Shown here: positions 11,863 to 17,292 of the stretch, one piece after another
How the letters are laid out: every line of letters begins with the position of its first letter
Position numbering within the stretch: position 1 is the first letter of the stretch
IMG/VR virus record: IMGVR_UViG_3300033571_026152
Location: 1 to 23,337 of that record
Strand: one strand, 5' to 3'
From: a virus
Length of the DNA: 23,337 nucleotides
Notes under the pieces: model-generated
Database searches by the model: none
Seen by the model: only the letters and a program-made list of their open reading frames with translations
Told to the model about the DNA's origin: nothing
Translations under genes and position numbers: made by a program

Positions 11863-12888
11863 ATGCCAATTGTTCAGACGCCTGACGAGCGACACTACGT
11901 TCAGGTAACCCATCCCCGCGCGCAGGCCGTACCCCATACGGGCGGCACGGCGACCCTCGCCAATACCGATATCGTTCGGCACATCAGCGCCCAGTTAAAC
12001 GCGGTCGACAACATCGTCCGCTCCGCCGGCAAAACTGGCAGCCGCGGCCTGCTCGCACCGCTGGTCGGTCGGAGGGGCGCAACGTTCACCAACGAGTACC
12101 CGCTGGCTGGGTCCGGGAGCGCTGGCACGTTGTCTGATCTCAACCCAGTCATCGAGGGCATCATGGGCCAATCCAGCACTGTGAGCGCCGGCGTGAGCGT
12201 TACCTATTCGCTCAGCCGCAACATCCCCGGCATGACGTTCTACAACTTCCGCGATCCAGCTGGCACAAACATCTTCAACGAGTGCCTGTGGGGCGGTGTA
12301 ATCGAAACGGCCGAGTTCGCGGCTGGCCAGGAGGCGGAGGCGACGCTCCGAATCAGCGGAAGCGGAGCGTATGTCATCAACAAACCGAACTTCGCCTCCT
12401 TGCCCGCCGCCGCGAAGGGCGGTCTGTCAGCTTTCCCGGCGGAGCCAGGCTCGCTCGCCTACCTGGGATCTCCGGCCCTTGCCTTTATCGGCTCGGTGAC
12501 GGTCAATGGCGTCAGCACTTTCAAGCTCTCGGAGGCCCGCCTGCGGCTGGCACTTAACCGGCAACTTCGCGGTTCGTTCGGGTCGTTCTATCCTGATACT
12601 CCGGCAGCCGGCGTCCGCGAAATCAGCTTGGATATGTCGATCTTCGAGGAGGACACCAGCGATCAGGCGGCTCTTCGCCATTTGGCCCACACCAAGGGCA
12701 CTTTTGACGTGACTCTTGTTCTCGGCAACACCGCCGGCAACATCTGGACGTTCAACCTGAACAACCTCACAATTCCAAGCATTGAGCGCCAGGACGGTGG
12801 ATTGGAAAGCATTCTGCAAATAAACAATTGCGTTGCCTCCATGACCAGCGTCGGGACCGATGACGAGTTGACTATTGTATGCACCTAA
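11863..12888 (+). CDS. Major tail tube protein, V-like by position
   Basis: This 341-residue protein polymerises into the tube. It has the glycine- and strand-rich look of tube proteins, and two similar halves may be present: one around GTLSDLNPVIEGIMGQSSTVSAGVSVTYSL and one around GVREISLDMSIFEEDTSDQAALRHL, both followed by strands such as TFYNFRDP and IWTFNLNNLTIPSIE. It is longer than lambda V (246), which carries an extra Ig domain, so the surplus may be in the core. TAGGAGA lies about 8 bp upstream of the ATG. The stop overlaps the next gene start by 10 bp. Identity as the tube is supported by its place directly before the G/GT pair and the tape measure. Confidence 0.8.
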   Translation: MPIVQTPDERHYVQVTHPRAQAVPHTGGTATLANTDIVRHISAQLNAVDNIVRSAGKTGSRGLLAPLVGRRGATFTNEYPLAGSGSAGTLSDLNPVIEGIMGQSSTVSAGVSVTYSLSRNIPGMTFYNFRDPAGTNIFNECLWGGVIETAEFAAGQEAEATLRISGSGAYVINKPNFASLPAAAKGGLSAFPAEPGSLAYLGSPALAFIGSVTVNGVSTFKLSEARLRLALNRQLRGSFGSFYPDTPAAGVREISLDMSIFEEDTSDQAALRHLAHTKGTFDVTLVLGNTAGNIWTFNLNNLTIPSIERQDGGLESILQINNCVASMTSVGTDDELTIVCT

Positions 12889-13325
12889 AGACCAAAACGA
12901 CCGTTCAGAGCGAGACGTTTCCTGGCGTTTCTTTCACCGTACGCACGCTGAACAGCGTGCAGCGCGCGCGTCGCGACGCCGCGATCGCCGAGCAGCGACG
13001 GGAGTACACCCGGCTCACAACGGAGTTGGCCGCGCTGGTGCAGCAACACATCGGGTCCGGCACAGCCGAGCAGCGATCCGCCAAGCTGACGGCGCTCGAG
13101 CCCGGCGTGTCCCTGCAGATGGCATCCCTCGACGATGAAGCGCGGCTGATCTATGACCAGCACATTGCGCCGGCGATGGTTCGAGCAGCTTTGGTGTCGA
13201 TCGATGGGCCGGACGGACTGACGGTGGAGACACTCTTCGACGAGGCGCCCGACGAGTTGATCGAGGAGATCGCCAAGTCCTGCGGGGACGCCAGCGGGCT
13301 TTCCGCGGAGAAGCAAAAAAACTAG
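12879..13325 (+). CDS. Tail assembly chaperone, G-like
   Basis: This 148-residue protein is the frame-zero product of the chaperone pair. In lambda, gpG coats the tape measure during tail assembly and is absent from the finished virion. It is mostly helical with conserved-looking hydrophobics (EARLIYDQHIAPAMVRAALVSIDG) and a final acidic helix (APDELIEEIAKSCGDASG). The start overlaps the tube stop (12879 versus 12888). The stop TAG (13323-13325) follows directly after a run of seven A residues that forms a slippery site, so a fraction of ribosomes should continue into the next frame. Synteny with the tape measure gene is exact. Confidence 0.88.
   Translation: MHLKTKTTVQSETFPGVSFTVRTLNSVQRARRDAAIAEQRREYTRLTTELAALVQQHIGSGTAEQRSAKLTALEPGVSLQMASLDDEARLIYDQHIAPAMVRAALVSIDGPDGLTVETLFDEAPDELIEEIAKSCGDASGLSAEKQKN
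13316..13322 (+). promoter_or_regulatory. -1 ribosomal frameshift site, A_AAA_AAC
   Basis: In frame zero the codons read CAA-AAA-AAC-TAG. The heptamer A-AAA-AAC at 13316-13322 matches the canonical X-XXY-YYZ slippery pattern. A -1 shift here continues without a stop into the next reading frame (CTA GCG ACC ...) and avoids TAG. A hairpin starts 8 bases downstream (separate feature). Confidence 0.85.
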
Positions 13326-13744
13326 CGACCGCCTACCTGTTCCAGCAGGTGGGCGGGCCCAATAAGGTCGAGTACCACTGCCAGCACTGTAAGGCCCAGA
13401 AGCTGTACATGACTCGCAACTGTCGCAAGTTCTTTCCGGAGCAGTACGACCCCGACCGGCGCGGCGGTTGGGTGCCTCGTTTCAACGTCAAGATGGGGGA
13501 GAAGTCGATCAGTTTCGTGCTGCCGGAGTTTGCTGTCCGGGAATGCCCGGTGTCGTACATCACCGGCGAATCGCTGGGCATCGTGGAGTTGTTCGCCCAT
13601 GCCGAGGTGGCGACGGACCGCGGCGGGGCGATGTTCGGGCCGGACGCCAGTAAGTGGCCGGCCTGGTGGGCGGATGCGCTGGGCGTACTGGCAGTGGTCA
13701 AGCGGGCGCACGAAAAGGCTTTCGAGAAAGCAACGAGTAAGTAA
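13322..13744 (+). CDS. GT-type chaperone extension (T-like), made by -1 frameshift
   Basis: The -1 frame is open from the slippery site and encodes 140 residues (LATAYLFQQVGGPNKVEY and onward). Fused to the first part it gives a 288-residue GT-type protein, a little larger than lambda gpGT. An independent GTG start at 13349 is possible but lies inside the hairpin and has no ribosome site. The segment has cysteines CxxC near the start and more downstream (YHCQHC, RNCRKFF), so a metal-binding knot is possible; lambda T is not known to me to have one. It also has WWADALGVLAVVKRAHEKA near the end, a helical segment. The stop abuts the tape measure start as TAATG. Confidence 0.85.
   Translation, partial: LATAYLFQQVGGPNKVEYHCQHCKAQKLYMTRNCRKFFPEQYDPDRRGGWVPRFNVKMGEKSISFVLPEFAVRECPVSYITGESLGIVELFAHAEVATDRGGAMFGPDASKWPAWWADALGVLAVVKRAHEKAFEKATSK
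13331..13354 (+). promoter_or_regulatory. Stimulatory hairpin for the frameshift
   Basis: GCCTACCTG (13331-13339) can pair with CAGGTGGGC (13346-13354) around a 6-base loop: a 9-bp stem with one G-U pair. It begins 8 bases after the slippery heptamer, the usual spacing for frameshift-stimulating structures. Confidence 0.7.
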
Positions 13745-16581
13745 TGCCAGCCACAGATAGATATCAGCTGATCTTGGAAAGCGCAACCCGCGGCGAGGCG
13801 GAGTTGCGCCGCTTTGAACAATCCATCAACCGGCTCGCCGACGTGGCCGAACGCTCGCAAGGCCGCACGGCCAACTCCTACGAGCGGACATCAAAGCGAG
13901 CCAGCGACGCGCTTAAAAAGACTGGTGATGACGCGATGCAGTTTGGCCAACGCGTCCAGGATTTCATTTCTCGGCCGCTCTCTTCGGCGGCCAATGCATT
14001 TCAAGAGTTTGCGGCTAGCGGCGGCAAGGTAGGGGCCGTTGTGGGTGGAGTGACGCTGGGTTTGGCGGCTGCATCTACAGCGGCGTTTGGTCTGGTAACC
14101 GCATCCGCGCAGGGCGCGCGCGAGATTTCCAACTTTGCGGACTCGACCGGTTTCACACTGAACCAGATGGACCGTTTCCGGGCCGTAGCGAAGCTATCCA
14201 ACTTCCAACTGACCAACCTGAATCAGGCGGCTGTGGATCTGTCACTGGCGCTGCGGGATACGGGAGGGCAAGGCGAGCGGACGCGGGCATCGCTGCGCGA
14301 ACTGGGTGTGTCATTCTCAGACTCAACGGGCAAGGTGCGGCCTCTGAATGCGATCCTGCTCGAAACCATCGAGGCTGTTTCGAAGATCGACGAGACATCG
14401 CAGCGCGTGCGACTATCGACCGTACTGGGAGGCGAAGACGCAGCGGCGCGTATTCAGACGCTGATCGGGAACTACCAGACGACCAACCGGGTAGCAGGGG
14501 AGCTGGGGTTTGGGACGCGTGAGAACGTGCTGAAACCGCTGAAAGAAGCGGGTGATGAGATCAACAGGCTGAATCTTCAGTTTGAGATTCTCCGGGACAA
14601 GATGGCTGTTCCGTTCACGTTCGTACTGCGGCAGGTCAACGAGATTCTGGAGCGAAGGCCTCAAGGTGCAGCCGCTATCATTTTCGACGCGGCGTTACAA
14701 TACTCCAACCCATTCGCTGCCATCGCCACGGCGGCGGCGGGAAGGCCCGCGCTGCAGTCTCTTCCGGGGCGCACGCGCGCGCTTGTGGGTAGCCAATCCC
14801 TAGAGCAACTGCAATCTGGGCTAGCCGACACGCAGGCCGGGGTTGGCTTATTCCAGCGTTTCGCATCAGGACGTGGCGGCGAACAGTCGGCCCAGTTCCG
14901 CTTGACGCGCATCCAGCAAGAGCGGACCGAACTACTCAACAAGCTGAGCCAAGGCACGCTTGCCGCGTCTTCGTTTAACGAAACCCTTTCCAATATTAAC
15001 CGCCTGACGAACGAAGAGCGCAGTCTCCAGAAAGCGCTGGAAAACTTGGAGAAAGCGCGGGCCGGCGCTCAGATTACCGTTCAGGCCGGCGACTTGTCGC
15101 TCCGATCGCGCAGCATTCCTTCGCTATTCCGGCGTGCTGAGGCTTCGCGCGTGGCGCAAGCCGGCGGCGTGTTCGGCGATTTCCAGACATCCGAGGCCGC
15201 GATCTCGGCGGCCAACCCAACACGGACCGCTGCCAATGCAGGGTATGGAGCCCTGCTGCTTCAGCAGGAGCAGCAGCAGCGCGAACGTATCCTCGCCATC
15301 ACCCAGCAAGAGCTGAGTTTTCAGACTCGCAAAGTTGAGCTGATGGCGGGCCCTGGTGGAGAACGGGCCGCGATCGAGGAGATCGCCCGGCTCAAACTCG
15401 CTGCGCTGGAAGAGGAGGCGGCTCGGTCGCTGGAGAACTTCAATATCCGCGACCGGCAAAATCAGATCGAGCAGGAGCGGGTGCTGTCCATCTTAGAATT
15501 GGAGCGTCGTCGCCGGCAGGAAAGCCGGGATGCCATCGGCAGCACGTTCGACGCCCTTATCTCCCGAGGGTCCGGCGGCGTCGGCGCCTTGGTGCGGTCT
15601 GTCGGGATTTCGCAGCTTCGGACAATCGCTCAAAACGCTGGCGAAGGACTGGCGAGGAACGCAGGTGGAGTCCTCGGCCGTATCGGTCAGGCCTCCGGGC
15701 TTGGGCGGCTACTCACGGGAACGCTCTTCGACCCGCAAAACGCTGACCCGTTGAAAAACGCCACGGACGCAAATACTGTTGCTACTCAGCAGAACACCGC
15801 CGCGCTGCTGGGCGTGTCTGCGGGAGGCGGAGGAGGAGTAGTTGGTGCGCTTGCCGGTTTGCTGCCAGGCATTGGTCCCGATCTAACTCGGCTGTCGACG
15901 GTTTCCGCCGGCAATCGAAACCTGGGTAATGCTGGACTCATCGGAGGTCTTTCTGTCAACTCTCCCGCTTTCGACCAGGCGGCCAACGCGGCGGCGGGGA
16001 CACGAAATCTCAACACGGCGGCGCTACTCTATGGCGTCCCCCTGCCGGTTGGCCAAGGCAAGGCCGGCCAGAGTCTCACTTTGGGGCAAGGCGTTGGCAT
16101 AGTGGGCGCCGGCTTGGCGGGTACGCTTGGTGCAATCAATGGATTCAAAGCGGGCGGAGTGCAGGGTGCACTCACGGGTTCTGCGTCGATTGCGGGAGCG
16201 GGCGCGTCCATTCTGGCGCTGTCGGGCGTTACTGGGCCCGCCGCTCCCATTCTCGCGGGAATCGGTCTCGCGCTGTCGGCGACCGCGGCTCTGCTGGGCA
16301 ATCCAAAGGAGAGGCGCGATCGGGCGCTGGATCGCATTGTGAACGATGCCCGATACACGGAGACGTCGCCCCTCGACTTCGCCTTCAGCACCGGCGGCGC
16401 CGGATTCGACTACAACAAGCGGGGCGAGTTGCGCGCCCAGCCGATCATGGTCACCATCAACGCTCTGGACTCGCGGAGCATTATTGACCGCCGGGATGAT
16501 TTGGCGACCGCCCTTCAGTACGCGATGTACGAAGGCCACGCGGTTAACCGCGCTGCCCAGGAGGTCGTCCTCGGCGTCTAA
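13744..16581 (+). CDS. Tape measure protein, H-like
   Basis: This 945-residue protein sets tail length and is injected with the DNA. It is mostly helical with long coiled-coil-like stretches (residues 5-95, and a Gln/Glu/Arg-rich stretch in the middle: QQEQQQRERILAITQQELSFQTRK). A hydrophobic segment at 96-120 (VGAVVGGVTLGLAAASTAAFGLVTA) and a Gly/Ala-rich hydrophobic region near the C-terminus (about 770-860) could enter or cross membranes. With about 1.5 angstroms per residue, a general rule for such proteins, the tail would be roughly 140 nm. Lambda H has 853 residues. No lysozyme or peptidase motif is visible. Translation is coupled to the chaperone frame by the TAATG junction. Confidence 0.92.
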   Translation: MPATDRYQLILESATRGEAELRRFEQSINRLADVAERSQGRTANSYERTSKRASDALKKTGDDAMQFGQRVQDFISRPLSSAANAFQEFAASGGKVGAVVGGVTLGLAAASTAAFGLVTASAQGAREISNFADSTGFTLNQMDRFRAVAKLSNFQLTNLNQAAVDLSLALRDTGGQGERTRASLRELGVSFSDSTGKVRPLNAILLETIEAVSKIDETSQRVRLSTVLGGEDAAARIQTLIGNYQTTNRVAGELGFGTRENVLKPLKEAGDEINRLNLQFEILRDKMAVPFTFVLRQVNEILERRPQGAAAIIFDAALQYSNPFAAIATAAAGRPALQSLPGRTRALVGSQSLEQLQSGLADTQAGVGLFQRFASGRGGEQSAQFRLTRIQQERTELLNKLSQGTLAASSFNETLSNINRLTNEERSLQKALENLEKARAGAQITVQAGDLSLRSRSIPSLFRRAEASRVAQAGGVFGDFQTSEAAISAANPTRTAANAGYGALLLQQEQQQRERILAITQQELSFQTRKVELMAGPGGERAAIEEIARLKLAALEEEAARSLENFNIRDRQNQIEQERVLSILELERRRRQESRDAIGSTFDALISRGSGGVGALVRSVGISQLRTIAQNAGEGLARNAGGVLGRIGQASGLGRLLTGTLFDPQNADPLKNATDANTVATQQNTAALLGVSAGGGGGVVGALAGLLPGIGPDLTRLSTVSAGNRNLGNAGLIGGLSVNSPAFDQAANAAAGTRNLNTAALLYGVPLPVGQGKAGQSLTLGQGVGIVGAGLAGTLGAINGFKAGGVQGALTGSASIAGAGASILALSGVTGPAAPILAGIGLALSATAALLGNPKERRDRALDRIVNDARYTETSPLDFAFSTGGAGFDYNKRGELRAQPIMVTINALDSRSIIDRRDDLATALQYAMYEGHAVNRAAQEVVLGV

Positions 16582-16937
16582 TGGCGTCTTTCCCTGCCCT
16601 ATTCTCGGGTTCGGTGTCCCTGTACCCGCTGACTCGAGGTCGCCGCATGCCGGTCGCCATCCAGGAGTGGAGCGACTTTTCCGAGCAGCGGTGGCGGCAA
16701 TCGGCCGAACTGGCGCGGATCCAGCTTATATTCGACGACGTGGTGACGACCGACAAAGAGGCGATTGTGACGTTCTTTGAGCAGCGGAAGGGCTCTTTCG
16801 ACGCCACATGGGACATCACGGTTGGTGGGTCCACCTATTCCTACATGGCCTTCGATTCGGATGAGCTGACGTGCACGGAATCGACGCCGGGCCTCTGGTC
16901 GCTTCAACTCACAGCGGTGCAGACAAGGAAGAACTGA
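16581..16937 (+). CDS. Minor tail-tip protein (M-like position)
   Basis: This 118-residue protein follows the tape measure, as lambda M (109 residues) does. It has the pattern YPLTRGRRMPVAIQEWSDFSEQRWRQ near the N-terminus and FFEQRKGSFDATWDI in the middle, which I associate with small beta-sandwich tail-tip proteins of the distal-tail class. The start overlaps the previous stop (TAATG), and the next gene begins 1 bp after its stop. It resembles its downstream neighbour in length and layout, so the two may be paralogues. The exact family (for example DUF2460-like or M-like) cannot be settled by eye. Confidence 0.7.
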   Translation: MASFPALFSGSVSLYPLTRGRRMPVAIQEWSDFSEQRWRQSAELARIQLIFDDVVTTDKEAIVTFFEQRKGSFDATWDITVGGSTYSYMAFDSDELTCTESTPGLWSLQLTAVQTRKN

Positions 16938-16938
16938 G

Positions 16939-17292
16939 TTGGCAGCCTACCCCACCTTTGCCTTTGGCGGCTCGGCCCACATCCCGTTCAGGGAAACGGT
17001 GGAGATGCGCAATGTCGTCAATCGACAGCCGCATGGCTGGCAGTATGCGTTCAATCTGCGGGCGACCCCGCTGCGTCGCTTCGAAATCACCCACCTTCTC
17101 AACGCAACCGACCTGGCAACGCTCGAGGCCTTCTGGGCGGCCCGGAAAGGTCCCTACGAATCGTTCAGCTTCACTCATCCGGATACCGCAGTGACCTATG
17201 CCAACTGCCGTTTCGGCATGGAGACGCTCGACATCGAAGGTTTTGAGCCCGGCCTGTTCCGGGTGCGAGTTGTGATCCAGGAACACGCCTGA
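16939..17292 (+). CDS. Minor tail-tip protein, paralogue-like to the preceding gene
   Basis: This 117-residue protein starts at TTG 16939, preceded by AAGGAAG about 7 bp upstream, which supports the non-ATG start. It parallels the preceding protein: a strand-rich N-terminus (FAFGGSAHIPFRETVEMRNVVNRQPHGWQYAF), then LEAFWAARKGPYESFSFTHPD in the place where the first has FFEQRKGSFDATWDITV. The pair may form successive rings at the tail tip below the tape measure. The stop and next start share bases (TGATG). Function is by position and pattern only. Confidence 0.7.
   Translation: MAAYPTFAFGGSAHIPFRETVEMRNVVNRQPHGWQYAFNLRATPLRRFEITHLLNATDLATLEAFWAARKGPYESFSFTHPDTAVTYANCRFGMETLDIEGFEPGLFRVRVVIQEHA

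Follow-up and report, generated by a model that had tools for sequence, protein, structure and literature searches.

A probable programmed −1 frameshift cassette for G- and GT-like tail assembly chaperones in an IMG/VR virus

In phage lambda, the slippery heptamer of the tail chaperone genes is G_GGA_AAG. The lambda gpG and gpGT chaperones have been described by Levin (1993) and by Xu, Hendrix and Duda (2004, 2013, 2014), as cited in PMC5009743 and PMC3711429, and the roles of G and GT considered here are taken from lambda as outlined in a passage of PMC5009743. Another heptamer, A_AAA_AAC, lies next to a stop codon at the tail chaperone genes gp12/gp13 of Acinetobacter phage Loki (PMC5313236). 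Here we analysed a 23,337-nucleotide stretch of virus DNA (IMG/VR record IMGVR_UViG_3300033571_026152; hereafter the window), in which two adjacent reading frames between the major tail and tape measure genes are joined by such a heptamer. Judged from sequence, this cassette is very likely a programmed −1 ribosomal frameshift yielding two tail assembly chaperones from one message. A first-pass annotation had proposed this GT-type reading, and we find it supported by a heptamer kept in relatives, by stems downstream of it and by the absence of a likely start for T; as that annotation also recognised, the principle is textbook from lambda G/GT.

Organisation of the cassette and its neighbourhood

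The codons at the end of the G-like gene, read directly, are CAA AAA AAC TAG, which places A_AAA_AAC in frame immediately before the stop, as the first-pass annotation had noticed (Table 1). Past the slip site, the −1 frame reads CTA GCG ACC GCC TAC and is free of stops up to the TAA at 13742–13744, so that it is indeed the frame of the next gene; upstream, it stays open back to 13157. The T-like domain is very probably made as the C-terminal part of a predicted GT fusion, whose length (148 + 140 = 288 residues) agrees with that given previously. The G/T overlap has 55 in-phase slots, and only one of them holds an X_XXY_YYZ motif, A_AAA_AAC itself, as compared with 0.14 predicted from the rate in the window's genes (14/5417). 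The AAAAAAC string by itself is not rare, since a second copy lies at 2403–2409 and 1.6 are expected in the window. Readthrough of the TAG was ruled out, as the zero frame meets a further stop soon and does not encode T.

Table 1. Features of the G/T cassette and flanking genes in the window
Feature	Position	Strand	Basis
Major tail (tube) protein, gpV position	11863..12888	+	Pfam Phage_tube_2, E 4.5e-7
G-like tail assembly chaperone gene, 148 aa, zero frame	12879..13325	+	Sequence, aligned relatives, AlphaFold model
Slippery heptamer A_AAA_AAC	13316..13322	+	Sequence; kept in relatives
T-like domain, −1 frame, 140 aa, four invariant Cys	13322..13744	+	Homology, AlphaFold model
TAG stop of the G frame, adjoining the heptamer	13323..13325	+	Sequence
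Candidate stimulatory stem-loop, 12 pairs (two U.G), 4-nt loop, 6-nt spacer	13329..13356	+	Folding
GTG, start of the listed separate T ORF, inside the stem	13349..13351	+	Sequence
Tape measure protein, gpH position	13744..16581	+	PHROG tape measure families, best E 2e-8

The genes are tightly packed: the ATG of the G-like gene overlaps the 3′ end of the major tail gene, and that of the tape measure gene overlaps the T stop in TAATG, the last A of TAA being the first base of ATG. The order major tail, G, T, tape measure is the same in relatives whose neighbours are recognised, and a major tail homolog lies directly upstream of the cassette in 93/183 loci and nowhere else. Further upstream are packaging and head genes of the lambda type (terminase GpA, portal, S49 peptidase, decoration protein D and capsid protein E). 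The pair occupies exactly the position of lambda G and T.

Several other genes were observed in the window. The tape measure gene is followed on the same strand by two small tail genes that adjoin each other and differ little in size (16581–16937 and 16939–17292, +); both are weak matches to PHROG 2913, and they possibly arose by tandem duplication. A large protein that is cut by the contig end (20611–23337, +), with right-handed beta-helix and pectate-lyase-like matches, is likely a tail spike. At the left contig end, an ASCH-domain protein is encoded at 113–712 (+; Pfam E 3.6e-7). On the strand opposite to the structural genes, a HicB-like antitoxin with an HTH (1674–2105, −; Pfam E 5.8e-10) has just upstream of it a 67-aa ORF (2112–2315, −) which, by eye, resembles a HicA toxin.

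The slip site and the protein family

Searching IMG/VR with the T-like protein gave 15 matches, and in each of them the first residue of T homology coincides with AAAAAAC. A DNA pattern that contained the heptamer retrieved at least 120 contigs, and the 80 that were read all encoded T homologs (80/80); as the pattern includes the heptamer, it only gathers sequences and is not a measure of conservation. Because of this bias, we picked 80 further loci by T peptide motifs alone. The slip site was AAAAAAC in 78 of these and AAAAAAT, which is also of the X_XXY_YYZ type and also encodes Asn, in the remaining 2, so that relatives lacking the heptamer, named by the first-pass annotation as evidence against its reading, did not turn up among them. 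The Lys codon of the slip site was AAA in 80/80 loci, compared with 139/613 (23%) of Lys codons elsewhere in the same genes, and the codon before it was CGA in 68 and AGA in 12, both minor Arg codons ending in A. The choice of codons at the slip site is fixed against usage. The slip signal is nearly constant across about 180 related loci. The frame-0 stop adjoins the heptamer in most relatives and lies far downstream in some, which indicates that the heptamer, not the stop, is the element kept.

The same signal was found in bacterial genomes that, by record title, are a Terriglobia MAG (L030) and a 'Deltaproteobacteria' MAG (L031), in two further loci from the phylum of the former (L237, L239) and in seven from the phylum of the latter (L240–L246). 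In L239, AAAAAAC is followed by CGT, and therefore the motif is no mere side effect of a Leu codon. Only L247 (A9-T, 1464–1472) and L238 (A7-G, reverse complement about 1420) depart from it.

These departures bear on transcriptional slippage, in which RNA polymerase would add an A within the A run so that some mRNAs encode the fusion directly. The site in the window is itself a run of seven A, and the two distant loci have a longer run (L247) or an A in the last place (L238); these remote relatives might use transcriptional slippage. However, the run is exactly six A followed by C or T in all 80 motif-picked relatives, which is short for polymerase slippage, and a ribosomal mechanism agrees with the phase, with the conservation of the last base and with a stem that starts 6 nt downstream. 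We therefore consider polymerase slippage very unlikely in the window, and ribosomal frameshifting remains our reading.

With regard to the proteins themselves, neither G nor T had a match at a meaningful score in Pfam, PHROGs, the PDB (searched by sequence) or INPHARED. The G/T family thus appears to be missing from Pfam and PHROGs; it is frequent in IMG/VR and also present in genomes of Terriglobia and 'Deltaproteobacteria'. Both proteins were modelled confidently by AlphaFold (pLDDT 91.9 for G and 92.7 for T). A fold search with G returned one strong match, to an unnamed phage protein, and a series of weak matches that includes several proteins annotated as tail assembly chaperones, none of them significant (the HK97 chaperone 2ob9 at rank 12, E 3.1); in addition, one member of the family had a PHROG match at E 0.059, to a tail assembly chaperone. 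PDB matches of G with Z up to 8.1 look like helical-bundle noise and were set aside. For T, the fold search found no structural relatives, PDB matches reaching only Z 2.9. Cys20, Cys23, Cys34 and Cys75 of T are invariant in the alignments, and these cysteines suggest that T binds zinc. Pfam matches of G to TetR_C_6 (E 0.0016; 1/37 members) and of T to zinc-finger families (E above 0.02, each in a single member) fall below curated cut-offs or are unshared by relatives, and were taken as chance.

The stem-loop and the missing start of T

The first-pass annotation had described a 9-bp hairpin starting 8 bases downstream of the heptamer; a hairpin is present there, but folding gives 12 pairs that start 6 nt after the heptamer. 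The predicted structure has a free energy of −22.3 kcal/mol (z −5.95; 0/200 shuffles equally good) and is stronger than synonymous recodings of the same peptide in 1995/2000 cases for the stem region and in 1970/2000 for 54 nt. About 2% of the 54-nt stretches of the window fold equally well, and the hairpin by itself is therefore not proof. In 80 relatives, the free energy after the site was slightly below that of synonymous recodings (mean z −0.56), a weak comparison on which we do not rely, since the pooled codon usage includes the conserved stem codons and 68 nt were folded.

The first-pass annotation had suggested comparing RNA structure among relatives. Many relatives carry stem-loops at the same place, and within a clade with a short T a structure a few nucleotides past the heptamer is kept by compensatory change. 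In this clade, the codons for V-A-F-H (GTC GCC TTC CA) pair with those for W-K-C-D (TGG AAG TGC GAC), and variants change jointly on the two sides (GTC/GAC, CTC/GAG, ATC/GAT, GCC/GGA). Across 50 sequences, 93.5% of stem cells were paired, far above slid registers, and both-side changes numbered 15 as compared with 3.8 ± 1.7 in shuffles (0/500); as these sequences are not independent, the shuffle count is no probability, and the slid controls retain the relatedness. Strong stems (−22 to −32 kcal/mol) also follow the heptamer in loci from the phylum of L031, the 'Deltaproteobacteria' genome. Both in the clade from that phylum and in the window's own small clade, stems stand at a similar distance with their 3′ arm in other codons, and the folds suggest that this arm has moved to different codons between clades. 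As the 3′ arm in the window lies in other codons than that of the short-T clade, covariation backs the window stem by analogy only.

The 3′ arm also contains a GTG in frame and 27 nt past the slip site, from which T could be made as a separate protein by coupling to the end of G. No Shine-Dalgarno-like sequence precedes it, in keeping with the earlier view of this start as poor. Most relatives have no counterpart: among 180 loci, 20 have a start codon between the slip site and the first Cys, and none of these has a Shine-Dalgarno-like sequence, so that the strong independent initiation at 13349 named beforehand as contrary evidence left no sign. Moreover, T homology extends upstream of the GTG as far as the slip site, where it begins, and residues 1–10 are modelled at a mean pLDDT of 98, mostly as helix (first helix, residues 2–9); starting at the GTG would remove this conserved, confidently modelled helix. 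T lacks a likely start codon of its own, the GTG is probably unused, and a separately initiated T seems to us even less probable than polymerase slippage. Errors in sequencing or assembly are usual at homopolymers, but such an error, or decay of a fused gene, is a scarcely credible source of the frame break, since about 180 loci, drawn from many samples and from bacterial genomes, show it at the same base with the frames open on both sides.

Expected products and comparison with known systems

Under ribosomal frameshifting, most ribosomes would end at the TAG and release the 148-aa G. The stem-loop would slow some of them with tRNA-Lys and tRNA-Asn on AAA-AAC, and both tRNAs could slip back by one base to AAA-AAA, after which the T frame would be read to give the 288-aa GT. 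When both tRNAs slip in tandem, the AAC in the A site has already been read as Asn. The main junction should therefore be KQKN-LATAY, and KQKK-LATAY, the junction put forward by the first-pass annotation, a minor one at most. The tryptic junction peptide would be NLATAYLFQQVGGPNK from tandem slippage, with LATAYLFQQVGGPNK as a minor form. We infer both slipping in the host and its efficiency. One point against this reading comes from a passage of PMC5009743, according to which A_AAA_AAC slips less well in E. coli than A_AAA_AAG does. By analogy with lambda, G may coat the tape measure protein, and GT may recruit the major tail protein through its T part.

On a wider and more tentative reading, which we put at somewhat under even chances, the cassette would represent a large family of frameshifted tail chaperones, absent from the libraries searched and found in phages of at least two bacterial phyla, in which T is a domain with a fold of its own, probably zinc-binding, the hosts slip well on A_AAA_AAC, and the stem has been kept while its 3′ arm moved. 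In practical terms, the analysis names an unannotated gene pair that is common in environmental phages, of which neither half is in Pfam or PHROGs and whose T part gene callers will split or miss. In addition, the roughly 180 loci are naturally occurring variants of a single −1 frameshift signal whose A_AAA_AAC hardly varies and whose stem covaries, and they could let the roles of the host tRNA (tRNA-Asn in the A site) and of the adjoining stop codon be measured.

As in lambda, the gene order is major tail, G, T, tape measure, with a −1 slip near the end of G, and the sequence predicts that T occurs here solely as the C-terminal portion of a fusion protein. Unlike in lambda, the heptamer is A_AAA_AAC, the stop follows it directly and the hairpin is strong and simple; both halves also differ in having no Pfam or PHROG family match, and T in its four invariant cysteines. 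At the slip site, the cassette resembles that of Loki (LN890663), where AAAAAAC stands directly before the stop of the G-like gene in an annotated joined CDS and is followed by CTA ATC in the new frame; tblastn with G and T of the window found nothing in the phage collection that contains Loki. Caulobacter phage phiCbK likewise has the slip site AAAAAAC in the chaperone gene preceding the tape measure gene (gp93/gp94; PMC3556154), whereas the window proteins have no match in the phage collection. A_AAA_AAC is also used in g-t of the haloarchaeal virus HCTV-2, as reported in a passage of PMC5009743; the host of that virus is archaeal, in contrast, and the window proteins have no match among phage records. 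Set beside these systems, the mechanism is textbook and ordinary in principle, and the protein family is new and worth annotating.
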